A stretch of 64,000 bases of DNA from Phycisphaerales bacterium (GTDB lineage Bacteria > Planctomycetota > Phycisphaerae > UBA1845). The notes below the pieces were generated by a model. The model was not told the DNA's origin. It saw only the letters and a list, made by a program, of their open reading frames with translations, and ran no database searches. The position numbers and the translations under genes were made by a program. The stretch is taken from contig JADZBE010000007.1 in assembly GCA_020852275.1 (NCBI GenBank), positions 310,001 through 374,000 of the forward strand, written 5' to 3'. This document shows, piece after piece, positions 4,484-64,000 of this stretch (positions are counted from its first letter, which is position 1; the number at the start of each line of letters is the position of its first letter).

Positions 4484-4884
4484 GCCGGTATCCAAACCCG
4501 CGCCAGGCTGTGATGCAAGTCGGCGAGTTGAAGCGCGGCCTTCTGGCGGGTCTGACGGGCAGCACCCCACCTTGGCACCCCCGCGCAGGCGGCGGTTCAG
4601 GGGCGCACAGCGGGACTGCTGGATTCCCGCCGACGTGGGAATGACGAGGCCGGACTCTCGCCGACGCGGGAATGACGAGAGTCGCCTTTCAAAACGAACT
4701 GTCGAACTGAACGCATGCGGGCGTCGCGCGCGGCTGCTTTGGTTGCATCGCCGCGTGAAATGGCTTCGAGGCTGGACAAGCCGGGGCGATTCGGAAATAG
4801 TACGCATCGGAATCAATGAGTCGCTTCCGGGCGCGATCGGCGCACGGATGAGCATCGGACGCGAATAGACGGAGGAGCGCTATC
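4484..4884. other. Divergent spacer with partial palindromic repeats
   Basis: This 400-bp spacer between two divergent genes must hold both promoters, but no clear -35/-10 pair could be fixed by eye. It contains two partial copies of the ATTCCCGCG element (4618-4680). No gene is supported. Confidence 0.5.
4618..4680. repeat. Two partial ATTCCCGCG-type repeats
   Basis: TTCCCGCCGACGTGGGAATG and CTCGCCGACGCGGGAATGACG sit about 30 bp apart. They match one arm of the 130-bp composite element at 6328, 29896, 36201 and 45320. Confidence 0.65.
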
Positions 4885-6227: not shown

Positions 6228-6327
6228 ATGCGCGACCGTTTGAGGCGGAAGGCGGGCCGCAGAGATTGCGGGTCTGTCAGGCCGCCGAAAAGTCGCAACC
6301 TCGCAATTCGTGGTGAGAGGCGATGTT

Positions 6328-6456
6328 CGTCATTCCCGCGAAGGCGGGCATCCATCCGGCGGCTGGCGAGGCCAGACGAGGCCGGCGGTTCTTCCGGGTG
6401 GAGTGGTCCCCCGCCTGCGCGGGGGTGACGGGCGCCATGCTTGGTTTCAAGTTTCG
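6328..6456. repeat. 130-bp composite palindromic element, copy 1
   Basis: Left arm CATTCCCGCGAAGGCGGGC, a spacer of about 55 bp, right arm CCCCCGCCTGCGCGGGGG, then GTGACGG and a tail TTGGTTTCAAGTTTC. The same order occurs at 36201 and 45320, and inverted at 29896. It fills the gap between HPr and enzyme I. Confidence 0.75.
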
Positions 6457-18618: not shown

Positions 18619-18669
18619 TGCGCGGCCTCAGGGGGTCCGACAGCGTACAACACCGATTTGCAGCCGGAG

Positions 18670-18802
18670 TCGGTGTGGCACCGGTTTGTCACCGGTGAGT
18701 GTAGCACAAGTTTCCCAACATGGGCATCCTCGACCTGACTGCTGCACCGGCTTCCAACCGATGAGTGCGGCACGGGTTTCCAACCCGTACGGAACCAACC
18801 CT
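18670..18802. repeat. Cluster of CACCGGTTTCCAACCGGTG hairpins
   Basis: Four diverged units in 130 bp, including CACCGGT-ttgtc-ACCGGTG near 18680 and ACGGGTT-tcc-AACCCGT near 18772, mostly preceded by GTGGCA or GCGGCA. The stems differ between units but mostly stay complementary. Similar units occur at 54573. Confidence 0.7.
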
Positions 18803-18878
18803 GCCCACGCAGTTTGAAGACCCTGTGGTTTGGATTGAAGCCCGAGATCCCTCACGGTCGCGGTACGGCTTGAAGCGT

Positions 18879-21114: not shown

Positions 21115-21212
21115 ACCCCGTCTCGATCCTCGCTCTCCCACCCGCGCCTGGGATGTTCCGTTTTCTGCCGATGATGATCGGGAGCGCCGGGATCAGGACC
21201 GCCCGCGCGGGG

Positions 21213-21310
21213 CGGACGGCGAGCGGGGAATCGCACTGCTCGCAGAGCAGTGGCACGCGGGCGGACGGCGAGCGGGGAATCGCACTGCTCACAGAGCAGT
21301 GGCACGCGGG
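21213..21310. repeat. 49-bp tandem duplication containing hairpin units
   Basis: Two copies (21213-21261 and 21262-21310) that differ by one base. Each contains the triloop hairpin CACTGCTC-gca-GAGCAGTG (or aca loop) followed by GCACGCGGG. The same hairpin plan, with other stem bases, is found in the aldehyde dehydrogenase gene (41104) and in clpB (42901). Confidence 0.85.
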
Positions 21311-24802: not shown

Positions 24803-24950
24803 ACTCATCTTTCCCGCACAGGCGGGGAACTCGTTGCGTCATTCCCGCGCAGGCGGGAATCTAGTCTCGCCATTCCCGAGCAGGCGGGCATCCCGCGTCC
24901 TGGCGATGCGCCTTGACCCCCCGCTTGCGCGGGGGTGACGGCTCTCATTC
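24803..24950. repeat. Four partial ATTCCCGCG / CCCCCGC repeat arms
   Basis: Successive arms TTTCCCGCACAGGCGGGGAA, CATTCCCGCGCAGGCGGGAA, CATTCCCGAGCAGGCGGGCA and CCCCGCTTGCGCGGGGGTGA. They are the building blocks of the 130-bp composite element, here without its tail. Confidence 0.7.
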
Positions 24951-25647: not shown

Positions 25648-25714
25648 CGATTCGCCCGGCGCCGGGCGTGCTTCGCGGTACGGTAGCGCCCCGGGATGAT
25701 CGCATCGCTTGCCT

Positions 25715-25800
25715 TTCAGAGCCGCGACCGAAAGGGAAGGAGTCCTTGCCTTTCAGGGCGGTGACCGCCAGGGAGCGAATCCCGAGGCTCGGAAGCGGAT
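25715..25800. repeat. Diverged GAGCCGCGACCGTGAGGGA phrases
   Basis: AGAGCCGCGACCGAAAGGGA near 25720 and GGGCGGTGACCGCCAGGGAG near 25757, each preceded by GCCTTTCAG. The phrase is found intact in reverse inside clpB and at 48915. Confidence 0.6.
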
Positions 25801-29884: not shown

Positions 29885-29895
29885 CTGCCTGAGGT

Positions 29896-30021
29896 GAAAC
29901 TCGAAACCGGTCAAGGCGCCCGTCACCCCCGCGCAAGCGGGGGTGCGGTTCGCCTTGGAAAGCCGTTTGATTCGTGCCTGCTCGCGCGCTACGGACTGGA
30001 TTGCAGCCTGCGCGGGAATGG
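29896..30021. repeat. 130-bp composite palindromic element, copy 2 (inverted)
   Basis: Reads tail first: GAAACTCGAAACCGG, then CCGTCACCCCCGCGCAAGCG, a spacer, then GGATTGCAGCCTGCGCGGGA. It lies between two convergent genes. Confidence 0.75.
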
Positions 30022-30047
30022 CTGGCGCTGCCATTCACGGCGGAACG

Positions 30048-31406
30048 TCACCCGACCAGTCGACGATACACAAGACCCAGCAGCGCGCTTCCCAGAATGA
30101 CGGGGATGAGATTCCACTTGAGCCGGGTCAAGGCGAGCAGCGCCGCCGCGCCAACCAGGATGGCGAAGACATCCACGCCGCCGGCTTTCGGGAGCACGAC
30201 CTGCAGGGCGAACCAGACCGCCAGGTTGAGGACCACGCCCACGACGGCGGCCGTGATCGCCGAGAGCGCTGCGCTGAGCGTGGCGCTGCCGCGCAGGCGC
30301 TCGATGTACGGGGCGCCCAGGAAGATCCACAGGAAGCAGGGCGCGAAGGTGACCCACGTGGTCATGAGTGCCGCAAGCGTGGCATTCAGCAGCGGCGGCG
30401 CGACGCCGGGCTGATGATACCCGCCGAGGAAGCCGACCCACTGCACCACCATGATGAGCGGTCCCGGCGTCGTCTCCGCAAGCCCCAGCCCATCAAGCAT
30501 CTGAGGTCCGGTCAGCCACTCAAACCGCTCCACCGCCTGCTGCGCGACGTAGGGCAGCACGGCATATGCGCCGCCAAACGTCACCATTGCCGCCTTGCTG
30601 AAGAACAGCCCCACCTTCACCAGGACGTCGTCCCATCCGCGCCACCCCGCAGCGGCCAGAACCGGCGCCCACCACAGCGCCCCCGCGACCAGAATGACTC
30701 GGGCGGCTCGACCCAGCGAAGGGCGCGCATGGTCGGGCGACTCGTGGTGATCGGCAAGGACCGCCGCGCCCGGCGATGCCCCGCCGTGTCCGCGGATGAC
30801 CACGAACAGGTCCGCTCGGACGCGCGATCCGATCAGCCCGATCAAGCCCGCGCCGAGAACAATGACGGGAAACGGAACTCTGAAGAAGTAGATGGCCACG
30901 AACGCCAGCCCGGCGAGGCTCCACATGACGCCGTTCTTGAGCGCCTTGCCGCCGATGCGCCACACGGCCGCCGCGACGACGGCCATGACCGCCGGCTTCA
31001 ATCCGTAGAAAAGCGACTCCACCCAGGCGACCTGCCCATAGGTGACATACACGTACGACAACGTCCAGAGGATGAACACCGCGGGAAGCACAAAGAGCGT
31101 CCCCGCCACGATCCCGCCGAGGGTGCGGTGGAGAAGCCAGCCGATGTAGATGGCGAGCTGCTGCGCCTCGGGACCGGGGAGCAACATGCAGTAATTCAGC
31201 GCGTGGAGAAAGCGTGATTCGCTGATCCAGCGTTTCCTCTCAACCAGCTCCTCGTGCATGATGGCGATCTGCCCCGTCGGTCCGCCGAAGCTGATGAACC
31301 CGAGCTTGAGCCAGAAGCGCAAGGCCTCGCCGAAGGAGGGATGCGACGCGCTCGGGTTCGTTCCGGCCACATCCATATGGACTGGTTCGGTCGGAGTTAG
31401 AGTCAT
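30048..31406 (-). CDS. chrA: Chromate transporter (ChrA, long-chain)
   Basis: A 452-aa polytopic membrane protein with two CHR domains in tandem. Domain 1 opens with FWLKLGFISFGGPTGQIAIMHEELVERKRW and domain 2 with LFFSKAAMVTFGGAYAVLPYVAQQAVERF, each with the family FGG motif, followed by TPGPxAxQ-like sequences (LLPGPEAQQLAIYIG and TTPGPLIMVVQWVGF). About ten to twelve membrane segments are visible. The family is known for chromate efflux, though many environmental members have no proven substrate. Start ATG 31406 (MTLTPTEP) is preferred; the far longer open frame upstream runs through the neighbouring gene and is spurious. The gene ends next to repeat copy 2. Confidence 0.88.
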   Translation of the reverse strand: MTLTPTEPVHMDVAGTNPSASHPSFGEALRFWLKLGFISFGGPTGQIAIMHEELVERKRWISESRFLHALNYCMLLPGPEAQQLAIYIGWLLHRTLGGIVAGTLFVLPAVFILWTLSYVYVTYGQVAWVESLFYGLKPAVMAVVAAAVWRIGGKALKNGVMWSLAGLAFVAIYFFRVPFPVIVLGAGLIGLIGSRVRADLFVVIRGHGGASPGAAVLADHHESPDHARPSLGRAARVILVAGALWWAPVLAAAGWRGWDDVLVKVGLFFSKAAMVTFGGAYAVLPYVAQQAVERFEWLTGPQMLDGLGLAETTPGPLIMVVQWVGFLGGYHQPGVAPPLLNATLAALMTTWVTFAPCFLWIFLGAPYIERLRGSATLSAALSAITAAVVGVVLNLAVWFALQVVLPKAGGVDVFAILVGAAALLALTRLKWNLIPVILGSALLGLVYRRLVG

Positions 31407-36177: not shown

Positions 36178-36481
36178 CGGCCCGCGGTGAAAGGCGGCGC
36201 TCGTCATTCCCGCGCAGGCGGGAATCCAGAGCGTGGTTTCAGACCAGGCGCGAATCCACCGGGTTTCCGGAGCGCACTGGACCCCCGCCTGCGCGGGGGT
36301 GACGGTCCCCGTGCGAAGTTTCGAGTTTCAACAGGACTGCCAGCGACGCGTTCGCAGGCGCGCCTTCCTTGCTTCGCGCGTGGGTTGCCAAACGAACCTG
36401 TTGGCCGCGCCGCTGCGCGCTGAGGACCGTGCAGGCGCGGCCTGGGGGTGGAAGCCGCCGCTCCCGCGCGATCGCACAACC
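36178..36481. other. Spacer holding composite element copy 3
   Basis: 304 bp between the oxidoreductase and HD genes, nearly half of it repeat (36201-36331). No gene is supported. Confidence 0.55.
36201..36331. repeat. 130-bp composite palindromic element, copy 3
   Basis: CATTCCCGCGCAGGCGGGAA, about 55 bp, CCCCCGCCTGCGCGGGGG, GTGACGG, and tail AAGTTTCGAGTTTCA. The most regular copy in the window. Confidence 0.8.
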
Positions 36482-42033: not shown

Positions 42034-42375
42034 GCGGAGTGAGAGCATTGCGGGGCGGTGGCAGGATCTTTGTTGATCGCCGGAACGAGAGTGTATCCCT
42101 TTGCGTGGCAGAGCCGCGACCGTCAGGAAACGAACCGCCGTCGCGCTGTACCGGAACCCGTCCTGGAGGTCGCCGGAGGCATCAACCCTTGCGCGGGCCG
42201 ATTGCGCACATGCGCGGCTTTCAAGAGCACGCGCCCGCGCGTCCAGACTGAGACACTACGACCGCAACGGACACGCTCACAGGCGTCGGCGCAATCGAAT
42301 GATATCAGGACGGGTCGCCTGGCCGCACACGCCGGCCGGTGAGCCCTGCAGCGCATGGCGATCGCTTTCATTCAC
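42034..42375. other. Spacer with phrase remnant
   Basis: 342 bp between the DUF2442 stop and the clpB stop. Contains one GAGCCGCGACCGTCAGGAAA phrase near 42110 and otherwise nothing recognised. Confidence 0.45.
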
Positions 42376-45132
42376 TCATCGCCTGGCGAATGCATAGAGG
42401 TCTCCCGCCACGTCCAGTTCGATTCGATCCCCCGGCGCGAACTCCCCCGCGAGCATTCTGCGCGCCAGCGGGTTTTCGATTTCCTGCTGGATCAGGCGCT
42501 TGAGCGGTCGAGCGCCGTAGGCCGGGTCGTAGCCGTCGGAGGCGAGTTTGCGGCGGGCGGCGTCGGTGAGAGTGAGCGTGATCTCACGCGCAAGCAGACG
42601 TTGCTGGAGGTGGCGGAGCTGGATGTCCACGATGCGCGCGAGGTCTTCCCGCGTGAGGCGGTGGAAGATGATGGTTTCGTCGATGCGGTTGAGGAACTCC
42701 GGACGGAAGTGCTGCTTGAGGACTTCCTTGACTTTCATTTCGATTTCGATGTCGGGGACGGAGTCTTCGTCTGTCGCCGGGGAGGATTCGGGGTGTGATG
42801 AGTCGCGCGGGCTGAAGTCCGCGGCTCGGGAACCTGCTTCCTCACGGTCGCGGTGCGAGTGGGAGGAACTCGCTCCCTTACGGTCGCGGCTCGGTTCAGA
42901 ACGGCTCGGAGAGCCGTGCCACCGGGTGGCCATGCGAGCGATGTATTCGCTGCCGATGTTGCTGGTCATGGCGATGAGGGTGTTCTTGAAGTCCACGACG
43001 CGTCCGTGGCCGTCGGTGAGGCGGCCGTCGTCGAGCACCTGGAGCAGCACGTTGAAGACGTCGCGGTGCGCCTTCTCCACTTCGTCAAAGAGGATCACGC
43101 AGTAGGGCCGGCGGTGAACGGCTTCCGTCAACATGCCGCCTTCCTCGTATCCCACGTATCCAGGCGGCGCGCCGATGAGCCGCGCGACGGCGTGCTGCTC
43201 CATGAACTCGCTCATGTCGATGCGGACGAACGCGGCCTCGTCGTCGAAGAGGAACTCCGCCAGCGCCTTGCACAACTCGGTCTTGCCCACGCCGGTGGGA
43301 CCGAGGAAGAGGAATGAACCGACCGGGCGGTTGGGGTCGCCCAGTCCGGCGCGTGAGCGGCGCACGGCGTCCGAGACGGCCCGCACGGCTTCCTCCTGGC
43401 CGACGAGGCGCTCGTGCAGGCGCTCCTCCATGTGAACGAGCTTCTGCTTCTCGCCTTCCATGAGGCGGGTGACGGGCACGCCGGTCCACTTGCTGACCAC
43501 TTCGGCGATTTCCTCCGCGGTGACTTCCTCGCGCAGCAGCGCCTGCCCGCTGCGGTGCAGCTCCGCGAGCTTCGATTCGCGCGCTTTCAGATCGCGCTCC
43601 AGCTGCGGAATCTCGCCGCGCTCCAGCTTCGCGGCCTCGCCCCAGTCGTAGCGGCGGCGCGCCGCGTCGAGGTCGGTCTGCTTGCGGGCGAGTTCTTCCT
43701 TGATGGCCTTAATCCCCGCGATGGCGTCCTTCTCGCTCTGCCACTGCGTCTTGAGGCGGTTGAACTCCTCCTTCTGCTCCGCAAGCTCTTTTTCAGTCTG
43801 GCGAAGCTGCTTGCGGCTGGCGTCGTCCTTCTCCTTCTTCAACGCTTCGCGCTCGATTTCAAGCTGCATGATGCGCCGGTGCAGGGCATCAACTTCCGCC
43901 GGCATGGAATCATTCTCGATGCGCAGACGCGAGGCGGCTTCGTCGATGAGGTCGATCGCCTTGTCCGGCAGGTGGCGATCGGCGATGTAGCGATGGGAGA
44001 GCGTGGCGGCGGCGACGAGCGCGGCATCCTGAATGCGCACGCCGTGGTGCGTGTCATAGCGCTGCTTGAGACCGCGGAGGATGGCGATCGTGTCTTCGAC
44101 GGTAGGCTCGGTGACGTAGAGGGTCTGGAAGCGGCGCTCCAGCGCCTTGTCCTTCTCGACGTGCTTGCGATACTCATCGAGCGTCGTGGCGCCGATGCAG
44201 CGCAGCTCCCCGCGGGCCAGCGCGGGCTTGAGCAGATTGCCCGCGTCCATCGAGCCTTCGGCCTTGCCCGCCCCGACCACGGTGTGCAACTCGTCGATGA
44301 AGAGGATGACGCGACCGTCGGACTCAACCACCTCGCGCACCACGGCCTTGAGACGCTCCTCGAATTCGCCCCGGTACTTGGCGCCGGCGATCAAGGCTCC
44401 CATATCCAGCGCAACCACGCGCTTTTCTTTCAGGACTTCCGGCACGTCGCCCGCGAGGATGCGCTGGGCGAGACCCTCGACAATCGCCGTCTTGCCCACG
44501 CCCGGCTCGCCGACGAGCACGGGGTTGTTCTTCGTCCGCCGGGCGAGGACCTGCATCACGCGTCGGATTTCGTCGTCACGTCCGATCACGGGGTCGAGCT
44601 TGCCCTGCCTTGCCATCTGCACCAGATCCCGCCCATATCGCAACAGCGCTTCGTAGGTGGCTTCGGGATCCTGTGTGTTCACGGAGGCCGAGCCGCGGAT
44701 GTCCTTCATGGCTGCCAGGAGGTCCGCCCGCTTCACGGCGCAGAGCTTCAGCAGCTCACTTGCCTCGCCTGGGGTCTCAACGAGCGCCAAGAGCAGGTGC
44801 TCCACGGAGACATATTGGTCCTTCAGCCGAGCGGCCTCTTTTTCGGCGGTGGCCAGCACATCCAGGAAACCGCGTGAAGGAGCGAGCGAGCCGCCCGTCA
44901 TTCGCGGCAGGCGGGCAAGCTCCGCGCCGAGCAACGCTCGGACTTGTGAGACGGAAGTGCCGACGCGCTCGAGCATCGAGACGGCGATGCCCCGCTCGCC
45001 GGCGTCAGACTCGCCCATCAGCGCGCAGAGCAGGTGGAGCGGGGTCAGCTCCGGGTGGCCGGCGGAGCGGGCTTGCTGCTCGGCGCTTTGAATCGTTGCC
45101 GTTGCTCGGACCGTGCATCGTTCGAGGTTCAT
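42376..45132 (-). CDS. clpB: ClpB disaggregase with repeat-encoded insert
   Basis: A 918-aa AAA+ chaperone that, with DnaK, pulls apart protein aggregates. Two Clp N-repeats (about 1-145) precede AAA-1 (Walker [11 protein letters not shown] near 200), a full ClpB-type middle coiled coil (about 390-520, [17 protein letters not shown] on), and AAA-2 ([19 protein letters not shown], later TSNIGSEYI and [11 protein letters not shown]). ATG 45132 (MNLERCTV) is chosen; the frame is open to 45186. Between the AAA-2 sensor region and [10 protein letters not shown] it carries about 45 extra residues rich in Ser, Arg, Asp and Pro, encoded by four copies of repeats found between genes elsewhere (42804-42920). 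Family length is about 860-870 aa. Confidence 0.95.
42804..42920. repeat. Block of four dispersed phrases inside clpB
   Basis: In order on the plus strand: GGGCTGAAGTCCGCGGCTCG (42804-42828), CCTCACGGTCGCGGTGCG (about 42840-42857), CCCTTACGGTCGCGGCTCGG (42874-42893) and the hairpin ACGGCTC-gga-GAGCCGT-GCCACC (42901-42922). All have counterparts outside clpB: in metH (60475), in spacers (18850, 48915, 42110) and in other hairpin copies. Confidence 0.85.
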
Positions 45133-45540
45133 GCGGTTCCCCATGCCCCACTGGTAGCGGTGGGCGTCAAGGAGACAAGCGGGCAACCTTCGTGCCGGGG
45201 CGCCAATCGCAGTATAAGTGGTTGTCTTACAAAGCGTTATGTGGGTTCAAGTGCGGGAGGGGGAGTCATGGCGAACTGACGAAACGGCATGGCATGTCCA
45301 GCTTCAAGGATCGCGCTCTTCATTCCCGCGCAGGCGGGAATCCAGCTTCGTCACCCCCGCGAAGGCGGGAATCCAGCGATACCTTGAGAAGAGCCACGAA
45401 TCCAGTGGTGCTTCCGGGGTGACTGGACGCCCGCCGGCGCGGGGGTGACGGGCCCTATGTCTGGTTTGGATTTCCACCGCGAACCGCCAAGAGAAGGTGG
45501 AAGGGTTTGCGCGGCTTTTCAGCAGGGATTCAGCGTGGGA
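45133..45540. other. Spacer with composite element copy 4
   Basis: 408 bp upstream of clpB and downstream of the ABC-2 permease. The element takes 45320-45477. The clpB promoter should lie at 45133-45300; a CIRCE or heat-shock sigma site was not recognised. Confidence 0.5.
45320..45477. repeat. Composite palindromic element, copy 4 (expanded)
   Basis: CATTCCCGCGCAGGCGGGAA, an extra ACCCCCGCGAAGGCGGGAAT arm, a spacer, CGCCCGCCGGCGCGGGGG, GTGACGGG, and tail TGGTTTGGATTTCCA. It has one more arm than the other copies, as if a partial duplication had occurred. Confidence 0.75.
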
Positions 45541-48880: not shown

Positions 48881-48951
48881 CTGTTGCAGTACCCGCGTGT
48901 TCGGGGGGGAATCCCTCGCTCCCTCACGGTCGCGGCTCAGATGTGCAACAG
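48881..48951. repeat. 71-bp module with inverted ends and phrase repeat
   Basis: CTGTTGCA (48881-48888) and its reverse complement TGCAACAG (48944-48951) frame a copy of the CCCTCACGGTCGCGGCTCAG phrase (48921-48940). It lies in the gap between the first two SPFH genes, four bases after the stop. Confidence 0.6.
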
Positions 48952-54532: not shown

Positions 54533-54572
54533 GAGCCGCTCCACCGCCACCTGCGGCACCGGCATTCGATTG

Positions 54573-54636
54573 GCGTGTGTGTGGCACCGGTTTCCAACCG
54601 GTGTGTGAGTGTGGCACCGGTTTCCAACCTGTGCGG
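54573..54636. repeat. Two CACCGGTT-tcc-AACCGGTG hairpins
   Basis: First unit is perfect; the second has one stem change (AACCTGTG). Both are preceded by GTGTGGC or TGTGGC. They lie between the permease and TPR-like genes and would be in the shared transcript. A reading frame through them (from 54575) is not part of the gene. Confidence 0.8.
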
Positions 54637-54673
54637 ACAGGAATGGGCTGATCGGCAGGATTCGAAATTGGCA

Positions 54674-56653
54674 ATGTCATCGGGCGCGTCCATTCATTAC
54701 GTCCTGCCGGAGTACCTTGCGGCCCGCCGCGCGGCGCAGCGGAGGGACTGGCGCGTTTTGGCGCTGAGCTTGACCACCGCTGCGGCGTGCCTGATCGGCG
54801 CGGGGTTCGTCCTGGATCCGATTAATCGCATCCGCCGTGAGCGTCAGCTTGTATTGGACCAGGACTCCGTGCGCGGATTGCCCCCGGCGCTGGAGCTGGC
54901 CAGCAAACTCGGGCCGGTGCGGGCGCTGGCCATTGATGTGGCGTTCATCCGCTATGAGCGGCTCAAGGAGCAGGGCAAGAATTACGAGGCTTTCCAACTT
55001 GCGCGGATTCTGACCAGTCTCCAGCCGCGGTTCCCAGGTGTGTGGGCGTATAACTCATGGAACATGGCCTACAACATTTCCGTCGCGTATTACGCTCCCG
55101 AGGCGCGGTGGAAATGGGTGACCAACGGCATTCGGGAGCTGCGGGACAAAGGTCTGCAATACAATCCGCGCGAGATCACGCTTTACAAAGATCTGGCGTA
55201 CATCTATTGGCACAAGATCGCGGATTTTCTGGACGACGAGCACCTGGCGTACAAGCGCGCCCTGGCCGTGGAAATGGAAAGAGTGCTCGGCGAGCCGCCG
55301 GTGATGCTGTCGGCGGAGGAAGAGGCGGGGCTGTTCAAGAAGATCGCGGATGCGCCGCATGACTGGAATGCGTTTCTGCAGTCTGACCCTGAGGCTGCCG
55401 CCTTCGTTGCCCGTCTGAGTGACAAGGATATCGCTCTTTCGCCCGATCGCGTGCTGCTGGATTTCGTGGCGCGTCATCTGCGAAGGCAACGACGACTTTT
55501 TGAAGTGGCCGCGGAGAAGCCGGAAGCGGACGAGCAGTTTGTTAAGCGCCTGGCGTTCCTCACGGATCCGGCCCACGAGGGGGTGCTGAATCGCGTGCTG
55601 GCGGTCATACGCTCGCGCGTGCTGCGGGAGGAAATGCGACTGGATCCGCAGTGGATGCTGAAACTCATGGAGGAGTTCGGTCCGGTGGACTGGCGCGCGG
55701 CCTGGGCGCACGCGCTGTACTGGTCGAGTTACGGCGACATGAAAACGGAAGGGCGGTTCAACCTCAATCCGAACGATTCGATGAACACCGTCCGTTTTAT
55801 TTTTTTCGCGTTGCGATATGGTGAGACGCGCGGACGGCTCATCTTTGTTCCGAATTTTGACAAGCCGTTTGACTCGTATATCGACTTTCGGCCGGATACG
55901 CGGTTTATTCCTTACACGTTTCGTGCTTACCTCAAATACGGCGAAAAGCAATTCAAGGACGATCCGAGGTTTGAGGAAGGCACGGCGGGTCCGCAGTACC
56001 GCTCGGGATTCTTCAACTGGATCGAAGATTCGATCGGCAACCTGTTCCGCGAGGGTGGTGAATCCAACCTGAAGCTGGCGCAGGAGTTTCTCGATTACCT
56101 CCGTGAGCACAACCGCCACCCCAACGGCGGCATTCAGGAGCGATACATCCTTCCGCTGCGCGACTTCGTGTTCGGCAATATCAAAGAAGAACTGATGACG
56201 TACAAGCAGTCGGACGTCATCGTGCGCGGATTTATGGACTCAGCACTGGACAAGCTGGGCGGCGGAGATGTGGTGGGTTTCGAGGGCGACATGGACGCCG
56301 CGCGCATTTGTTATGACCACTACATGGCCGAAATGACCAGTGACGTGAAGGACCGCCGTCGTCTTCAGGCCTATGAGTTGATGTTCGCCGAGGAGACGCT
56401 GGGCTACTTCCAGGATACGCGGCGGCACGTGCTGATGAAGAAGTGGCTGTGGGATCGGATCGATCTCCGGTTGCAGCAGATGATCTGGGATGAGGCGCAG
56501 CCATACCTGGCTGAATGGTGCAAGCGGAACGATCCTCCGCTGGACGCGGCGAAGATGTTCCCGGAGCCGCCCGGCATGGAAGAGTTCCGCAAGGACGAGA
56601 TCTACCAGCGGTTTCGGCGGAACCCGACCGTGGAGGAGGGCGAGCGCAAGTAA
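54674..56653 (+). CDS. Membrane-anchored TPR-like protein of unknown function
   Basis: A 659-aa protein that I do not recognise by name. One N-terminal membrane segment (VLALSLTTAAACLIGAGFVL, about 28-47) is followed by an all-helical soluble region with TPR-like pairs, such as YERLKEQGKNYEAFQLARILTSLQPRFPGVWAYNSWNMAYNIS and later IYWHKIADFLDDEHLAYKRALAVEM. Many Tyr, Trp and Arg. No active-site motif. It closes the co-directional SPFH/ABC run, 141 bp after the permease, so it is plausibly the scaffold or substrate-recruiting part of that module. ATG 54674 (GAAATTGGCA before it is weak) is chosen to exclude the hairpin-encoded frame. Confidence 0.68.
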   Translation: MSSGASIHYVLPEYLAARRAAQRRDWRVLALSLTTAAACLIGAGFVLDPINRIRRERQLVLDQDSVRGLPPALELASKLGPVRALAIDVAFIRYERLKEQGKNYEAFQLARILTSLQPRFPGVWAYNSWNMAYNISVAYYAPEARWKWVTNGIRELRDKGLQYNPREITLYKDLAYIYWHKIADFLDDEHLAYKRALAVEMERVLGEPPVMLSAEEEAGLFKKIADAPHDWNAFLQSDPEAAAFVARLSDKDIALSPDRVLLDFVARHLRRQRRLFEVAAEKPEADEQFVKRLAFLTDPAHEGVLNRVLAVIRSRVLREEMRLDPQWMLKLMEEFGPVDWRAAWAHALYWSSYGDMKTEGRFNLNPNDSMNTVRFIFFALRYGETRGRLIFVPNFDKPFDSYIDFRPDTRFIPYTFRAYLKYGEKQFKDDPRFEEGTAGPQYRSGFFNWIEDSIGNLFREGGESNLKLAQEFLDYLREHNRHPNGGIQERYILPLRDFVFGNIKEELMTYKQSDVIVRGFMDSALDKLGGGDVVGFEGDMDAARICYDHYMAEMTSDVKDRRRLQAYELMFAEETLGYFQDTRRHVLMKKWLWDRIDLRLQQMIWDEAQPYLAEWCKRNDPPLDAAKMFPEPPGMEEFRKDEIYQRFRRNPTVEEGERK

Positions 56654-56710
56654 CGCCGACGCGCAATTTTCGCGCATGGATGCCGGGTTGCCCGTTGCTC
56701 CGCGACGAAA

Positions 56711-56740
56711 CTGGATTCCCGCCTGCGCGCGAATGACGAG
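56711..56740. repeat. Single ATTCCCGCG-type arm
   Basis: TGGATTCCCGCCTGCGCGCG with following AATGACG. A lone arm of the composite element after the TPR-like gene. Confidence 0.6.
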
Positions 56741-56895
56741 GTTGGGCGTGAACCGCGCATTGCCGGCGATTGAAGCAACGCCCCGCCTGGCTCAGGCACC
56801 TGCCGGCACAAGCTGCGCCCCCGCCGCCGAAACCTGCCGGATCGCGGCCTGAGCAACTGAAATCAAGCCCTGCCCCTTCCGATAGATGAGGCGAC

Positions 56896-57345
56896 ATGGC
56901 CGCCTCCTCGCACGCACAACACTACCTGCGCGAAGCCGTCCTGACTGCCACGCAGGAGCAGCTTCAGCTCATGCTCTACGACGGGGCGATCCGGTTCACG
57001 ATGCAGGGTCGTGATGCCCTGACGAAGAAAGACTTCGAGCGCGTCTTCGAGCATCTTTCGCGGGCCCAGAACATCGTGATGGAGATGTACAACGGGCTTA
57101 ACCACAAGGTGAACCCGGAGCTGTGCGAGCGCGTCGGGGCGTTGTACATGTTCATCTACCACAAGCTCGTTGACGGCAGCGCCCGCCACGACGTTCAGGC
57201 ACTGGACGACGCCCTGAAGATCCTGCGCATGGAACGCGAAACGTGGCAGATCCTCGTGGACAAGGTGGCCTCGGAGCGAGGGGAGGCGAACGCCGCCTTC
57301 GGGTCGGCGGCGCACGAACCCGGTAGCCTGTCAGTGGAGGTGTGA
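56896..57345 (+). CDS. fliS: Flagellar export chaperone FliS
   Basis: A 149-aa four-helix protein that binds the C-terminus of flagellin and keeps it unpolymerised. The signature YLREAVLTATQEQLQLMLYDGAIRFTMQGRDAL is at residues 10-42, and FEHLSRAQNIVMEMYNGLN, ALYMFIYHKLVDGSARHD and ILRMERETWQIL follow as in the family. The last 20 residues are an extra low-complexity tail. No other flagellar gene (fliD, fliC, flgM) is in the window, which is unusual because fliS normally follows fliD. Confidence 0.85.
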   Translation: MAASSHAQHYLREAVLTATQEQLQLMLYDGAIRFTMQGRDALTKKDFERVFEHLSRAQNIVMEMYNGLNHKVNPELCERVGALYMFIYHKLVDGSARHDVQALDDALKILRMERETWQILVDKVASERGEANAAFGSAAHEPGSLSVEV

Positions 57346-57769
57346 GCTGAGCAGCGGGGAGACGGAGCGTGCCTCCGCGCATTTCCGGCGTTTCTCGGCG
57401 GGGACCCAAGGCAACCGCACTCTGACCTCGGATCCTCGTGGCTGGGTCCGGTTTGCTTGCGGAGCCGTGGCGAGCCGGCGACTTCGGCGCACCCGGGTCG
57501 TCCACGGGTCCGCTGCTGCGGACCCGTGCCACGCGATGCGGATCCGTGACACCCGATGCGGATTCAAGGCAATCGAGTTCTTGTTTGACCGGCCTTGTTT
57601 TCCGCGGTAGCATCATTTCAATGATCCGCGCCATCGCCGCATTTCGGGTCCTCCTCATGGGCATGTGACCCGTCCTCCGTCGGCGTTCACGCCGAAATCG
57701 CGTATCATTCCCGCACTCGATCGTTGAAACAGGACATTCATGCTCTCCTTGCGCAGGAACGGCGGCCAC
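57346..57769. other. Spacer before metH with a strong hairpin
   Basis: 424 bp. Holds the 11-bp hairpin at 57503 and no supported gene. I looked for a SAM-I or cobalamin riboswitch before metH and could not recognise a conserved core. Confidence 0.5.
57503..57528. repeat. Hairpin CACGGGTCCGC-tgct-GCGGACCCGTG
   Basis: Perfect 11-bp stem, 4-nt loop, flanked by CCACG. The longest stem in the hairpin family, 240 bp upstream of metH. Confidence 0.75.
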
Positions 57770-60700
57770 ATGGAATCCAAGCTTCTTTCAACACTTCAGC
57801 AGCGCGTGCTCGTGCTGGACGGTGCAATGGGCACGTCCATCCACGCGCGCGACCTGACGCTGGCGGACTACGACGGGCATGAGAACTGCGTCGATGTCGT
57901 CTCGCTGACGCGCCCGGACGTGCTGCTGGACATTCATCGCTCGTTTCTGTCCGTCGGCTGCGACGCGGTGATGACCAACACGTTCGGCGCGAGCAAGCTT
58001 ACGCTGGGCGAGTTCGGCATCGCGGGGCAGACGTTTGAAATGAACCAGGCCGCCGCGCGCATCGCCCGCCGCGCCGCCGACGAGTTCAGCAAACCCGCAC
58101 AGCCGCGCTTCGTCGTCGGCTCGATGGGGCCCGGCACGCGGCTCATCACCCTCGGGCAGACCCACTGGGACGAGATGCTGGACAGTTACACGGAGCAGGC
58201 GCGCGGGCTGCTCGACGGCGGCGTGGACGCGCTGCTCGTGGAGACGTGCCAGGACATTCTGGAAGCGAAATGCGGCATCGTGGCGTGCATGGACGCGATG
58301 CGCGCGACAGGCCGCGCGGTCCCCATCTTCTGTACCGTGACCATTGAGACGACGGGGACGATGCTGCTGGGCACGGAAATCGCCGCGGCGGTGACGATGC
58401 TCAACGCGTACGATTCCGTTGCTGCCATCGGTCTGAACTGCGCCACCGGTCCGCAGGAGATGAGCGAGTACGTCCGCTACATTTCGCGCAACACGGACAA
58501 GCTGCTGCTCGTGCAACCCAACGCCGGGCTGCCGCAGCTCGTGGGTGGCAAGCCGCATTACGCGCTCACTCCGGCGGAGCTTGCTCGGTGGCTGAAGGAG
58601 TTTGTCGAGGCCGACGGCGTCAACCTGGTCGGCGGCTGCTGCGGGACGACGCCGCAGCACCTTGCAGCGGTGGTGGACGCGATGGGCCGGCGCGCGCCCG
58701 TGCCCCGCACCTTCGTGGTCGAGCCGTCGGTTTCGAGCCTGTACCAGTCCGTGACCCTGCGGCAGGACAACGACATTCTCGCCATCGGCGAACGCACCAA
58801 CGCCAACGGCTCGAAAAAATTCCGTGAGCTGCTCGCCGCGGGCGACCTCGACGGCATGGTGCAGATGGGCCGCGAGCAGGTGAAGCACGGGAGCCACTGC
58901 CTCGACGTCTGTGCGGCCTACGTGGGGCGCGACGAGACGGCGGACATGACGGCGCTGCTGCGGCGGTTCGTCACGGATGTGACGGTGCCGCTGGTGATCG
59001 ACAGCACGGAGACGAACGTGCTGGAGGCGGCGCTGAAGCTGGCGGGCGGGAAGTGCATCATCAACTCGATCAACCTCGAAGACGGCGAGCATCGCGCCGA
59101 TGGGGTCTGCGGCCTGGCGAAGCGTTACGGCGCGGCGCTGATTGCGCTGACGATCGACGAGGAGGGGATGGCCAAAGACGCGGAGCGCAAGGTCGCGGTC
59201 GCCCGCCGGATCCACGACATCGCGGTGAATCGGCACGGCGTGAAAGCATCGGACCTGATTTTCGACCCGCTGACGTTCACCGTCTGCACGGGCAACGAGG
59301 ACGACCGCAAGCTCGCGCTGGAAACGCTCAACGGTCTGCGGCGGATCAAGGCGGAGCTGCCGGGCGTGCACACGGTGCTCGGCGTTTCCAACGTCAGCTT
59401 CGGCGTCGCGCCGCCCATCCGCAAGGTCATCAACAGCGTCATGCTGCACCACGCGCGCGAGCACGGGCTGGACGCGGCCATTCTGCACGCGGCGGGCATC
59501 GAGCCGCTGTTCAAGATTCCGGAGGATCAGCGCCGCGTGGCGGAGGACCTGCTGTTCGATCGCCGGCGCGAGGGCTACGACCCGCTCACCGAATTGCTGA
59601 AGATGTTCGAGGCGAGCCGCGGACTTCAGTCCGCACGATCCGGCGAATCTCAGCGCGCCTCCGAGTCTGAAAAGCCCAAAGACATACGCGATCGCTTGAA
59701 GCGGCGCATCATCGACGGCGACCGCGTTGGGCTGGAGGACGACCTGGACGAGGCCATGACTACGTATCGCCCGCTCGACATCATCAACGAGATTCTCCTC
59801 GACGGCATGAAAACCGTGGGCGACCTGTTCGGGGCCGGGCAGATGCAACTGCCGTTCGTGTTGCAGTCGGCGGAGACGATGAAGGCGTCGGTCAAGCACC
59901 TCGAGCCGCACATGGACCGCGTGGATGGCGAGCAGAAAGGCACGATGGTGCTCGCCACGGTGCGCGGCGACGTACACGACATCGGCAAGAATCTCGTGGA
60001 CATCATCCTGACGAACAATGGCTACAAGGTCGTCAACCTCGGCATCAAGCAGCCGGTGGCCGCGATTATCGAGGCGTATGAGCAGCACAAGGCCGACGCG
60101 ATCGGCATGAGCGGGCTGCTGGTGAAATCGACAGTGGTGATGCGCGAGAATCTGGAAGTGCTCAACGAGCGGGGGCTGTCGCCGCACGTCATCCTGGGCG
60201 GGGCGGCGCTGACGCGCAAGTATGTGGAGGACGACTTGCGCGGCGTGTACGCCGGCGCCGTGGCGTATGCGAAGGATGCGTTTGAGGGTCTGCGACTGAT
60301 GGAGGAAATCGTCGAAGGGCGCTTCGAGGGGGCTGCGAAGCGATCGACCGAGTTCAGTGGGCGCGGGGGGTTGCCTTCGAGAGAGGTCGTGATTCCTTGC
60401 GCGGGGTCGCGCGGCGGGGGACTGCCACGAGGTGCGGACTTGCGTGATGCGGCATTGGCCGGGAGCGGCGAGCCCGCGCGGGCTGAAGTCCGCGGCTCGC
60501 TTCCGCCCATATCCGACATTTCGCGCGTCGAACCGGTTCCTCTCGCGCCATTCTGGGGATCGCGCGTCCTTGAGCATATTCCCATCAAGACGGTGCTCGC
60601 CTGGATCAATGAGAACATGCTCTTCCAGGTGCAATGGGGTTACAAGAAAAACCGGCGCAGTCCGGAAGAGTTCGCGCGCTATGTGAATGACGTTGTGAGA

Positions 60701-61363
60701 CCCGTCTATCGCGATCTGGCCGAGCGCTGCGAGCGCGAGGAGATTTTGCGCCCGCAGGCGATCTATGGTTTCTGGCCTTGTCAGGCCGAGGGCGATGAGC
60801 TTGTGGTATTCGACCCTGCGAGTTTCGACGCGGGCCGGCCCCGCCCGGCGCGGGCGCTGCGCGAGCTGGCTCGGTTCGACTTTCCGCGGCAGGGCAAGGC
60901 GCCGTACTGGTGCCTGGCGGATTTCTTCCGACCCGTGGAGAGCGGCGAGTTCGACGTGATCGCTTTTCATGTGGTGACCATGGGTCGGCACGTCAGCGAC
61001 GTGGCGCGGGAGTGGTTCGCGCAGGACCGCTACCAGGACTATCTGCATTTGCACGGACTGGGCGTGGAGGGGGCCGAGGCGCTGGCGGAGTTCATCCATA
61101 AGCAGATCCGCGCGGAATGGGGCATCGCCGGCGAGGACGCGCGCGACAAGCAGGAAATCTTCAAGCAGCGCTACCGGGGCTCGCGCTACTCCTTCGGCTA
61201 CCCCGCGTGCCCCAGACTCGAAGACCAGCTCAAGCTCTGGCCTTTGCTGGAGCCGGAGCGCATCGGCGTGACGCTGTCGGAGGAGTTTCAGTTGGAGCCG
61301 GAGCAGACGACGACGGCGCTGATCACGCATCACCGGCAGGCGAAATATTTCGCGGTGGCGTGA
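57770..61363 (+). CDS. metH: Cobalamin-dependent methionine synthase
   Basis: A 1197-aa enzyme moving a methyl group from methyltetrahydrofolate via methylcobalamin to homocysteine. Modules in order: homocysteine domain (about 1-315; zinc Cys in NCATG and GGCCGT), pterin domain (about 340-600; AIGERTNANGSKKF), cobalamin cap and domain (about 635-860; DVHDIGKN with Co-ligand His736), and the SAM-dependent activation domain (about 925-1195; WPCQAEGDE, RYSFGYPACPRLED). The longer frame start at 57740 adds 10 residues; both starts have purine-rich sites. Linkers near residue 620 and 860-920 contain the dispersed phrase GGGCTGAAGTCCGCGGCTCG or its inverse (59614, 60475), and the second linker is about 20-40 residues longer than usual. 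Confidence 0.96.
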   Translation: MESKLLSTLQQRVLVLDGAMGTSIHARDLTLADYDGHENCVDVVSLTRPDVLLDIHRSFLSVGCDAVMTNTFGASKLTLGEFGIAGQTFEMNQAAARIARRAADEFSKPAQPRFVVGSMGPGTRLITLGQTHWDEMLDSYTEQARGLLDGGVDALLVETCQDILEAKCGIVACMDAMRATGRAVPIFCTVTIETTGTMLLGTEIAAAVTMLNAYDSVAAIGLNCATGPQEMSEYVRYISRNTDKLLLVQPNAGLPQLVGGKPHYALTPAELARWLKEFVEADGVNLVGGCCGTTPQHLAAVVDAMGRRAPVPRTFVVEPSVSSLYQSVTLRQDNDILAIGERTNANGSKKFRELLAAGDLDGMVQMGREQVKHGSHCLDVCAAYVGRDETADMTALLRRFVTDVTVPLVIDSTETNVLEAALKLAGGKCIINSINLEDGEHRADGVCGLAKRYGAALIALTIDEEGMAKDAERKVAVARRIHDIAVNRHGVKASDLIFDPLTFTVCTGNEDDRKLALETLNGLRRIKAELPGVHTVLGVSNVSFGVAPPIRKVINSVMLHHAREHGLDAAILHAAGIEPLFKIPEDQRRVAEDLLFDRRREGYDPLTELLKMFEASRGLQSARSGESQRASESEKPKDIRDRLKRRIIDGDRVGLEDDLDEAMTTYRPLDIINEILLDGMKTVGDLFGAGQMQLPFVLQSAETMKASVKHLEPHMDRVDGEQKGTMVLATVRGDVHDIGKNLVDIILTNNGYKVVNLGIKQPVAAIIEAYEQHKADAIGMSGLLVKSTVVMRENLEVLNERGLSPHVILGGAALTRKYVEDDLRGVYAGAVAYAKDAFEGLRLMEEIVEGRFEGAAKRSTEFSGRGGLPSREVVIPCAGSRGGGLPRGADLRDAALAGSGEPARAEVRGSLPPISDISRVEPVPLAPFWGSRVLEHIPIKTVLAWINENMLFQVQWGYKKNRRSPEEFARYVNDVVRPVYRDLAERCEREEILRPQAIYGFWPCQAEGDELVVFDPASFDAGRPRPARALRELARFDFPRQGKAPYWCLADFFRPVESGEFDVIAFHVVTMGRHVSDVAREWFAQDRYQDYLHLHGLGVEGAEALAEFIHKQIRAEWGIAGEDARDKQEIFKQRYRGSRYSFGYPACPRLEDQLKLWPLLEPERIGVTLSEEFQLEPEQTTTALITHHRQAKYFAVA
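59614..59634. repeat. GAGCCGCGGACTTCAGTCCG phrase inside metH
   Basis: Inverse of the phrase at 60475 and 42804, with C to T changed at one site. It encodes SRGLQSA in the linker between the pterin and cap domains. Confidence 0.75.
60475..60499. repeat. GGGCTGAAGTCCGCGGCTCG phrase inside metH
   Basis: Identical over 25 bp to the copy in clpB at 42804, here encoding part of ARAEVRGS in the cobalamin-activation linker. It lies in the sense direction of metH, whereas the clpB copy is antisense to that gene. Confidence 0.85.
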
Positions 61364-61421
61364 CCCGTGGTATTGGCGGGCACAGGAACGTGCTATAGTG
61401 AGCAGGTGAAGCGCTACCTCC

Positions 61422-61712
61422 ATGCTGAACATCCGCAAGCAAATTGTGACCGATGAATCGAACCGCCCCGTGGCTGTGCAGATCGGCTACGAGGACTGGT
61501 GCCGGATCGAGGAATTGCTTGACAGCGGCGAAAGCTGCCAAGCGGAAGGCGGCGACGACTCCCGGTTAATCGGCTCGGTTCAGGGGGGTGAAGACGCGGT
61601 CCATTACCAGCGCCGCGTTCGCGATGTACTTCGCGGTACGCCGCCCAGCCCAGGAACCCAGCGAGGTCAGAACGATTCCCCTCCCCGGGGTGCCCTGCTA
61701 CAATTCGGATGA
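61422..61712 (+). pseudogene. Phd/YefM-like antitoxin remnant
   Basis: The first 33 residues (MLNIRKQIVTDESNRPVAVQIGYEDWCRIEELL) match the DNA-binding start of prevent-host-death antitoxins. After DSGESCQAEGGDD the frame loses family character and runs Arg/Gly-rich to the stop, which suggests a frameshifted or truncated 3' half. 96 aa in total. It lies 58 bp after metH and directly before a toxin-antitoxin pair. Confidence 0.55.
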
Positions 61713-61752
61713 GGCGGGCATCGGGGGAACTGCGGCGCGGCGGGTACAGCGG

Positions 61753-61998
61753 ATGCTATCAACCGGAGCGCATTCTATCATCGAGCAGGTCAAGGCGTTG
61801 CCGGGCGACCAGCAGTTGGAGGTTGCCGAGGCCATCGATCGCCTGACTTGGGCACGGCGTTGGCGTCTGATCTGCGAACGGATCGAGGCGGGATACGGCG
61901 CCGGCCACAACGCCGTGGATGACCAGATTGATGCGGAAGTCCGCGCCGTTCGCCAGGAGAAGCCCCTATCCACGCGATCCTCGATACGTCCGTCCTGA
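61753..61998 (+). CDS. Putative antitoxin of PIN toxin
   Basis: An 81-aa protein starting MLSTGAHSIIEQVKALPGDQQLEVAEAIDRLTW. The helical, Glu/Leu/Gln-rich opening (EQVKALPGDQQLEVAEAI) is typical of short antitoxins that precede PIN toxins. A longer frame from 61588 exists but its first 55 residues have no such character. The gene overlaps the toxin frame by about 31 nt. It probably neutralises the toxin by binding its active site. Confidence 0.55.
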   Translation: MLSTGAHSIIEQVKALPGDQQLEVAEAIDRLTWARRWRLICERIEAGYGAGHNAVDDQIDAEVRAVRQEKPLSTRSSIRPS

Positions 61999-62396
61999 TC
62001 AGCGCGCTGCTCGGCGGCTGGTGGCGCCGGATCGCGGAGGGCGTCGAGGGGGGCGCACTGTCGCTCGTCGCCTCGCCGGACCTGATCGACGAATTCACCG
62101 AGGTGGTCGCCCGACCATACTTCGAGCGGCTCATTCACGCCGACGATGCGATGGCCGTGGCGGACCTGCTTCGTCGAGCTGCACTTCACAAGCCGATTCA
62201 CGTGAAACTCGTCTGTCGAGACCCAAGCGATGACTATCTTCTTGCCTTGGCGGAGGTCTCCACGGCGGAGGTCCTGGTCACGCGAGACGAGGATCTGCTC
62301 GTGATCGGGAAATATGGTCGAACGGCCATGATTCACGTCGCGGAGTTCCTGGCGCGCATCGAGCGGGAATTGCAGCGAACCAAACCGTCACTGTGA
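61968..62396 (+). CDS. PIN-domain toxin (COG1569-like) with no standard start
   Basis: A PIN RNase domain of about 142 aa, with all four acidic residues in place: Asp in AILDTSVLISALL, Glu in LIDEFTEVV, Asp in CRDPSDDYLLALA, and Asp in VTRDEDLLVIG. The frame opens at 61932 and contains no ATG, GTG or TTG before the domain's first Asp. AGGAGA at 61955-61960 sits 7 nt before an ATC codon (61968), suggesting initiation at ATC or loss of the start by mutation. The next ATG (62103) lies too far inside. Toxin of a type II pair with the upstream gene; RNA target unknown. Confidence 0.62.
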   Translation: MHAILDTSVLISALLGGWWRRIAEGVEGGALSLVASPDLIDEFTEVVARPYFERLIHADDAMAVADLLRRAALHKPIHVKLVCRDPSDDYLLALAEVSTAEVLVTRDEDLLVIGKYGRTAMIHVAEFLARIERELQRTKPSL

Positions 62397-62583
62397 CGCC
62401 GGAGTCGCTCGATGAGTTGCCGAACCACGGGACACACTCCATGTTCGCAAGGGCGCGCCGGGTGCAGCCGAGTTTCTTGCATCCTCGTGTCCACGCTGGA
62501 AGCGAGCGCATCTCCTGATCCACTTTGCGGTTTCGATAACCCGCGATAGCGTACTGCGGCTCACGGGAGCTGGAGGTTACGCG

Positions 62584-64000
62584 ATGACTCGATGCGGGCG
62601 ACGGGTGGCGGGACGTAGGGTGGGCGCGGCGACGGCGGCATTGCTGGTGTTCACCGGGACGGCAGTGTTCAGTGCGGGCTGTCGGACGATTCCGCGGGCT
62701 ACGGAAGCGGCGTCGGCGGACGAGGCCGCAAACTCTTCGGCACCGCCTTCGCCCGCGTTATCAGCAACGTCCACTTCCCCATCCACACGATCGGCCGCGC
62801 CTGCGTTGCAAGTATCGGGTGAGATGGATGTAAGCCCGGCACGTCCGGCAGCGACCGGCGCTGCGGGCGGTTCCGCGGTGACTAACACCACCCCGGCCAA
62901 TGGCGCACCCGCAACTACTGCTGCGCCCGGGGCGACTGAACGCGATATGCAGGCGTCTGTTCGCGCGCTGACCGCCGATGATCTCAAAGGGTTGTCGTGG
63001 CGCAGCGTCGGTCCGGCGAACATGGGCGGGCGCGTCGCTGATATCGCGCTGGCGCCGGGAAACGCCAAGACTTTCTACGTCGGCTTCGGCACCAGCGGGC
63101 TGTTCAAGACGACCAACAACGGCACGACCTTCGCCCCGCTTTTCGACAAGGAGCCTACTGCCTCGATCGGATCCGTTGTCGTGTGCGACGCGCCGCCGGA
63201 TTGGCCCGGATGGAAGGACGAGCCGGAGGTCGGCCAGTCGAAGGGTCCGGACCAGGATGAAGACAAAGGCAAGGCCAAGATCGTCTGGGTCGGCACGGGC
63301 GAAGGCAACGGGCGCAACTCGTCCTCCTACGGCAACGGCGTCTATCGCTCGACCGACGGCGGAGCGACTTTCGTTCATTGCGGGCTGCCCGACTCGCATG
63401 ATATTCCGCGGCTGGCCGTCGATCCGCGCAACCCCGACGTCTGCTACGCGGCCGCGCTCGGGCACCTGTGGGGCCCGAACAAGGAGCGCGGGGTGTGCAA
63501 GACGACCGACGGCGGCAGGACATGGAAGCCCGCGCTGCAGACGGATGAGGACACCGGCGCGATCGACGTGCTGCTGGACCCGCAGAATCCCGACATCGTT
63601 TACGCGGCCATGTACATGCGCCGCCGCACGCCGTACAGCTACCGTAGCGGCGGGCCCAAAGGCGGGCTGTACCGCTCGCTCGATGGGGGCCTGTCGTGGA
63701 GCCGGCTGGGCGGCGGACTTCCGGGGCAGACCGGTCGCATCGGGCTGGACATCTACGCGAAAGACACGCGCATCCTCTACGCGATTGTCGAGTCCGACAT
63801 CGGCGGCTTCGGCGTCGAACCGTTCGACGATCGCAGCAAGGCCGGCGGGCTGTTCCGCACCGAGGACCGCGGGGAGACATGGACGCGCGTGCACGATCAC
63901 TCACCCCGCGCCTTCTACTTCTCGAAGGTCCGCATCGATCCCACGGATGATCAGCGCATCTACGTGCTCGGCTGGGGACTGAACATCTCCGACGACGGCG
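62584..64000 (+). CDS. Sortilin/BNR-type propeller protein (partial at window end)
   Basis: The 5' part of a large exported protein; 472 residues are seen and the frame is open at 64000. The N-terminus (Arg-rich then AALLVFTGTAVFSAGC) is a signal with a possible lipidation Cys33. A Ser/Ala/Thr/Pro-rich linker of about 90 residues follows, then a beta-propeller of VPS10/BNR type from about residue 135: SWRSVGPANMGGRVADIALAPGNAKTFYVGFGTSGLFKTTNNGTTFAPLF and further SxDGGxTW blades (STDGGATF, TTDGGRTW, SLDGGLSW, TEDRGETW). Such proteins are abundant and poorly understood in planctomycetes. ATG 62584 follows GGAGGTTACGCG. Confidence 0.8.
   Translation, partial: MTRCGRRVAGRRVGAATAALLVFTGTAVFSAGCRTIPRATEAASADEAANSSAPPSPALSATSTSPSTRSAAPALQVSGEMDVSPARPAATGAAGGSAVTNTTPANGAPATTAAPGATERDMQASVRALTADDLKGLSWRSVGPANMGGRVADIALAPGNAKTFYVGFGTSGLFKTTNNGTTFAPLFDKEPTASIGSVVVCDAPPDWPGWKDEPEVGQSKGPDQDEDKGKAKIVWVGTGEGNGRNSSSYGNGVYRSTDGGATFVHCGLPDSHDIPRLAVDPRNPDVCYAAALGHLWGPNKERGVCKTTDGGRTWKPALQTDEDTGAIDVLLDPQNPDIVYAAMYMRRRTPYSYRSGGPKGGLYRSLDGGLSWSRLGGGLPGQTGRIGLDIYAKDTRILYAIVESDIGGFGVEPFDDRSKAGGLFRTEDRGETWTRVHDHSPRAFYFSKVRIDPTDDQRIYVLGWGLNISDDG

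Follow-up and report, generated by a model that had tools for sequence, protein, structure and literature searches.

The Rickettsia palindromic elements (RPEs) are the classic case of repeats residing within protein genes, and one enzyme tagged in this way has been shown to be active (review PMC2229807). Opitutus terrae, Rickettsia conorii, and other hosts likewise have intragenic copies of GTAG- and CGTC-tagged REPs, with some genes hit twice (PMC3733652). Here, we describe a family of short palindromes indicating that such in-frame repeats, best known from Rickettsia and from some REP-rich proteobacteria and verrucomicrobia, also occur in Phycisphaerae. In this lineage, short DNA repeats remodel the linkers of essential enzymes (MetH, ClpB, AlaRS, GlnRS, and TypA) within one genus.

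The window, by which we mean the whole 64,000-nucleotide stretch analyzed (C7:310001-374000 of a 5.05-Mb, 43-contig genome), contains CGCGCGGGCTGAAGTCCGCGGCTCG twice, as an exact 25-bp identity between positions 42804-42828 and 60475-60499. A sequence-only reading of this DNA had singled out this phrase as shared by metH and clpB in opposite sense, placed it in linkers that tolerate change, and attributed it to spread at the DNA level, since different frames and strands are read. These statements hold. Pfam bears out both gene assignments. Read in sense, the phrase gives ARAEVRGS in metH; read in antisense, it gives the unlike peptide RAADFSPR in clpB. Both copies found in metH sit between Pfam domains—those flanking linker 1 being the pterin-binding and B12-binding_2 domains—and the clpB copy falls within the second AAA domain, in a stretch whose length varies. 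What the earlier reading missed is the identity of the phrase as a hairpin repeat (hereafter F1), the presence of a third copy, with one mismatch, also in metH, the spread of the repeat across the order, and the insertion of a second family (F2) along with it. For the 20-bp core, allowing up to three mismatches, the window holds 3 matches against 0.02 expected from shuffles. The features concerned are as follows:

42376..45186, minus strand: clpB, with a composite F1+F2+hairpin insert at about aa 752-805 (Pfam)
42804..42828, plus strand: F1 copy in the D2-domain loop of clpB (gene on the minus strand); antisense translation RAADFSPR
42837..42856, plus strand: degenerate F2 copy CTTCCTCACGGTCGCGGTGC in clpB, with the F1 copy on one side and the F2 copy on the other (by eye)
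42873..42892, plus strand: F2 copy CTCCCTTACGGTCGCGGCTC in the clpB insert; translated SRDRKGA
42901..42922, plus strand: third hairpin type, ACGGCTC-GGA-GAGCCGT then GCCAC, at the far end of the clpB insert (by eye)
57740..61363, plus strand: metH, cobalamin-dependent methionine synthase, with two F1 copies (Pfam)
59613..59632, minus strand: third F1 copy GGACTGAAGTCC, a variant with a fully paired stem, in metH linker 1; translated SRGLQSAR
60475..60499, plus strand: F1 copy in metH linker 2, between the B12-binding and activation domains; translated ARAEVRGS

Alignment of 67 copies gave the F1 consensus, in tag orientation, as 5'-CGAGC-CGCGGRC-TTCA-GYCCGCG-CGAA-3', a unit of about 27 nt comprising a CGAG 'tag', a 7-bp stem, and a TTCA loop, with random flanking sequence. 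Individual stem pairs are preserved in 61-66 of the 67 copies. At pair (4,11), GC occurs in 37 copies and AT in 13, and the two sides are associated (Fisher p = 0.0014); this association was not built in, because the search pattern allowed both letters independently at both positions. The consensus copy folds with a hairpin energy of -9.6 kcal/mol (z -2.1). The energy of the exact 25-mer is not significant (z -0.6), because it contains, according to the strand, either a G-T wobble or an A-C mismatch pair. Genome-wide, the F1 20-mer with at most one mismatch has 29 matches distributed over both strands, compared with 0 for the reversed control, and a slightly wider pattern with up to three mismatches recovers 74 copies, compared with 5. 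The counts thus lie well above the composition expectation, at which the earlier interpretation would have fallen.

For gene context, 54 regions were fetched around copies, and genes were predicted with a home-made codon-usage caller, giving a coding fraction of about 0.70. Thirteen of 55 F1 loci fall inside ORFs against 70% coding (p = 2e-12), a count that is approximate because of the home-made caller, and the remaining 42 lie outside called ORFs; with 13/55 so far below 70%, F1 is found chiefly outside genes. Within ORFs, each of the five stop-free frames is used and the TGA frame zero times, and the host ORFs include those encoding ClpB, MetH, AlaRS, GlnRS (two copies), TypA, kynureninase, aldehyde dehydrogenase, Cas1, and AMP-binding enzyme(s). 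The copy in the Cas1-like protein (L257, 3929-4948, plus strand) is located near the N-terminus, at residues of about 27-36. Besides its F1 copy, AlaRS (L236, 1794-5087, minus strand) carries the stretch NAECGMRNAE...SAFSIQHSAF, which resembles the translation of short ATTC/GAATGC-type repeats in tandem.

The stable stem, the conserved loop, and the mostly intergenic location would all suit a conserved functional hairpin, such as a terminator or an mRNA stability element, placed by selection and only incidentally present within genes. We consider this explanation improbable, as the primary sequence is strictly kept, including the tag outside the stem, and copies are found inside ORFs of essential genes and in tandem arrays. 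Moreover, an Rfam search of 56000-64000 (the metH region) returned no match, and the copies have no U-tract consensus downstream. Nor are intergenic copies enriched between convergent genes (7 convergent, 8 divergent, and 24 same-direction, versus an expected 22%, 22%, and 55%), which argues against a terminator role. Terminator function, specifically, was rejected on the missing T-tract consensus together with this lack of convergent-gene excess.

To follow the two sites across relatives, orthologues were aligned from the genus, the family, and the order, with four draft genomes representing the genus: our own and G001, G002, and G003. Each species has a single genome in GTDB, so the comparison is between congeners, which are much diverged; no strain-level empty site and no target duplication was seen among them. 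In metH linker 1, our genome has F1 alone, G003 and G002 have an F2+F1 composite with 27-bp (9-codon) spacing, G001 has F2 alone, and other genera have neither. In linker 2, G003 possesses a counterpart of the copy at 60475, identically placed and read in the same orientation and frame, and one more F1 copy lies 150 bp from it; G001, G002, and the orthologues from outside the genus have no F1 there. The clpB loop carries F2+F1 and the third hairpin in our genome, F2+F1 in G001, and F1 in G002, whereas G003 has six tandem 30-bp repeats of another hairpin, GGCGACTC-TCC-GAGTCGCC, which is related to the third type. This G003 array (L185) keeps the frame, occupies the ClpB loop where F1 and F2 sit here, and is translated as DSPSRQSSR repeats. 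Outside the genus, orthologues lack the inserts at both the metH and the clpB sites. Since the same genes hold different repeats in each congener, the same few tolerant sites have been colonized repeatedly within one genus, and misassembly is an unlikely source of this pattern because it appears in four independently assembled genomes. The metH of G002 and G003 (L154, L156) additionally contains a large in-frame insert in the activation domain, at about aa 1031 (window protein numbering), which is absent from our genome and from outside the genus.

That the same linkers hold repeat-derived inserts in all four genus genomes could also be taken to mean that the F1 peptides improve the MetH and ClpB linkers and are kept for that reason. 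This proposal fares no better than that of a functional hairpin, and we likewise give it little credence: the encoded peptide varies with frame, strand, and repeat family, most F1 copies are intergenic, and orthologues from outside the genus do without any insert. For annotators, repeat-derived peptides such as RAADFSPR in planctomycete proteins are not conserved motifs.

Direct recombination or gene conversion between metH and clpB, which lie 17.7 kb apart, would account for the identity of the two 25-mers; however, this identity stops at the borders of the repeat itself, and one further exact 20-mer and 26 one-mismatch copies occur elsewhere in the genome, making such an exchange very improbable. 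Weakest of all is the idea that the two genes came to resemble each other through convergence of their proteins, or through biased codon usage and composition in low-complexity linkers: both sites are indeed GC-rich, change-tolerant linkers, but the two genes read the phrase in different frames and from opposite strands, the third copy gives SRGLQSAR, identical letters are also found between genes, and reversed controls yield 0 to 5 matches against 29 to 74 for the true pattern, leaving this idea with a negligible chance of being right. Chance or composition as such is ruled out by the reversed-pattern controls and the shuffles.

We therefore favor, with a probability of roughly 0.85, the reading that the phrase common to metH and clpB represents a single unit of F1, a dispersed REP-like palindromic repeat that spread at the DNA level and survives in frame in tolerant linkers. 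Within this reading, the spread of F1 at the DNA level is itself shown: the genome-wide copies, the insert-free orthologues outside the genus, and the differing repeats of the congeners mean that such spread, and not protein convergence, explains the phrase. F1 would then be a REP-like element, mobile or copied and non-autonomous. New copies would arise through DNA-level transposition of a single-stranded hairpin, most plausibly driven in trans by a RAYT-type Y1/HUH transposase. Insertions that keep the frame in tolerant linkers would survive, and others within genes would be removed by selection, with in-frame survival possible because five of the six F1 frames are stop-free. The peptides themselves would have no selected role, and the metH and clpB linkers would serve as repeated landing sites. 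Tandem arrays may grow or shrink locally by recombination between the GAGCCGCG heads common to F1 and F2; as this head is common to both and their spacing in metH is 27 bp, the loss of one by head recombination would probably keep the reading frame.

The F2 family, CTCCCTYACGGTCGCGGCTC, is more abundant than F1, with 235 genome copies at up to two mismatches and 0 for the reversed control. In tag orientation, both families start with CGAGCCGCG, and CAGAGCCGCG is also common in F2. Within the window, F2 occurs at 42873-42892, 48909-48935, 18837-18863, 420-469, 25709-25778, and 42101-42133, with the translation SRDREGA, and copies of this family also lie inside ORFs. Further hairpins populate the same DNA. 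The family CGTCATTCCCGCGMAGGCGGGAATCCAG is present at 6309-6354, 24808-24897, 36183-36228, and 45299-45375, with inverted arms at 4618-4679, 29895-30050, and 56704-56757, and its CGTC tag and CCA tail fit the published CGTC-tagged REPs. Separate from F1, the window has a genuine CGTC-like family, CGTCATTCCCGCG-AAG-GCGGGAATCCA. Planctomycetes are not among the hosts given for CGTC-tagged REPs (PMC3733652). Hairpins with differing stems stand before or after GTGGCAC/GTGCCAC at 18666-18701, 54572-54637, 21210-21307, and 42901-42922 (examples being GTGGCACCGGTTTCCAACCGGTG and GCACTGCTC-GCA-GAGCAGTGGCAC), and possibly form a third tag-sharing repeat group.

Beyond our genome, F1 is spread through the order (Phycisphaerae). 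It is carried, at up to one mismatch, by 35 of 60 relatives, ranging from single copies to 253 per genome, and the reversed control is 0 in every one of the 60 genomes. An exact 22-mer scan of named genomes hit almost only Phycisphaerae or unclassified Planctomycetota. In relative G049, many F1 copies are paired in inverted orientation at a distance of about 70 bp, their CGAG tags facing outward; our genome contains mainly single copies and direct tandem arrays with periods of 30, 34, and 42 bp.

Two strong RAYT-type (Y1_Tnp) genes were identified in our genome (L246 and L264), and both were rejected as partners of F1, being flanked by other hairpins, namely the GTTGCC-tagged CCAGTGACTTCAGTCACTGG at C6 and CCGCCCCGGAGGGGCGG at C26. 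None of the 24 RAYT or Y1_Tnp genes examined in our genome and its relatives is directly flanked by true F1 copies. Hairpins do occur on RAYT flanks, and some of them have the F1 loop and inner stem (GRC-TTCA-GYC), with a GTTGCC tag in our genome and a GTAGCC tag in relative G031, where they flank a RAYT gene (L268) on its sides. Both tag types coexist in G031 (51 GTAGCC-type and 261 CGAGCC-type matches), and our genome has 0 exact GTAGCC-type hairpins with the F1 loop and 53 of the CGAGCC type. Because the RAYT-flanking hairpins of G031 and our genome match the loop and inner stem, and because both tags coexist in G031, F1 looks, at the sequence level, like a tag-variant cousin of the GTAG REPs. 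Over the 60 genomes, the correlation of F1 copy number with RAYTs is weak, whether these are counted (rho 0.20, p = 0.13) or represented by the best RAYT score (rho 0.28, p = 0.03). We lean slightly toward mobilization of F1 by a RAYT, a step we infer rather than observe since none of the RAYTs examined is flanked by F1 and the copy-number correlation is weak. With GTAG- and CGAG-tagged hairpins of the same loop side by side, G031 offers a concrete system for asking which transposase mobilizes tag-variant REPs. More speculatively, and with the odds clearly against it, a CGAG-tagged REP lineage might have arisen in Phycisphaerae from GTAG-tagged REPs: loss of the TAG stop from the tag would have left five of six frames open, allowing coding genes to be colonized and the same protein linkers to be remodeled repeatedly together with the CGAG-tagged F2.

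Searches of open-access papers for the F1 core palindrome produced chance or GTAG-tagged matches only, and no paper on such repeats in Phycisphaerae was found among them; the family and its tag thus appear to be undescribed, the phenomenon itself being known. Set against described systems, F1 resembles the REP/BIME/REPIN repeats of the GTAG superfamily (PMC3733652, PMC3116915, PMC2817692), which are likewise high-copy, mostly intergenic hairpins of 20-40 bp, and it shows the general REP features of a palindrome in this size range with tens to hundreds of dispersed, predominantly extragenic copies. As in GTAG REPs, an unpaired tag stands at one end and some copies lie in ORFs; in contrast, the F1 tag is CGAG rather than GTAG, and no RAYT flanked by its own repeat was found for F1 among the 24 genes. 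The inverted pairs of G049, with tags outward, have the geometry published for REP dimers (PMC3733652), whereas our own genome shows mainly singles and direct tandem arrays rather than inverted dimers. With CGTC-tagged REPs (PMC3733652), F1 shares a similar size, a 4-nt loop, the lack of a known dedicated transposase, and, as in Rickettsia conorii, intragenic copies, but its consensus has neither the CGTC tag nor the CCA tail. Opitutus terrae, a verrucomicrobium of the PVC group, also carries REP-like repeats in the ORFs of conserved genes, sometimes twice per gene as in metH, although these are GTAG-tagged (PMC3733652). In its mode of working, F1 comes close to the RPEs (PMC2229807), selfish palindromic repeats that lie in frame in conserved housekeeping genes and are tolerated in several frames: it, too, sits in frame in conserved protein genes whose orthologues in relatives have no insert. 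RPEs, however, are 105-146 bp long and Rickettsia-specific, whereas F1 measures about 27 bp, belongs to Planctomycetota, and coexists with a co-inserting second family that shares its head. Working like REPs and RPEs, yet differing from GTAG and CGTC REPs in tag and from RPEs in size and host, F1 is best placed among the intragenic REP-like palindromes.
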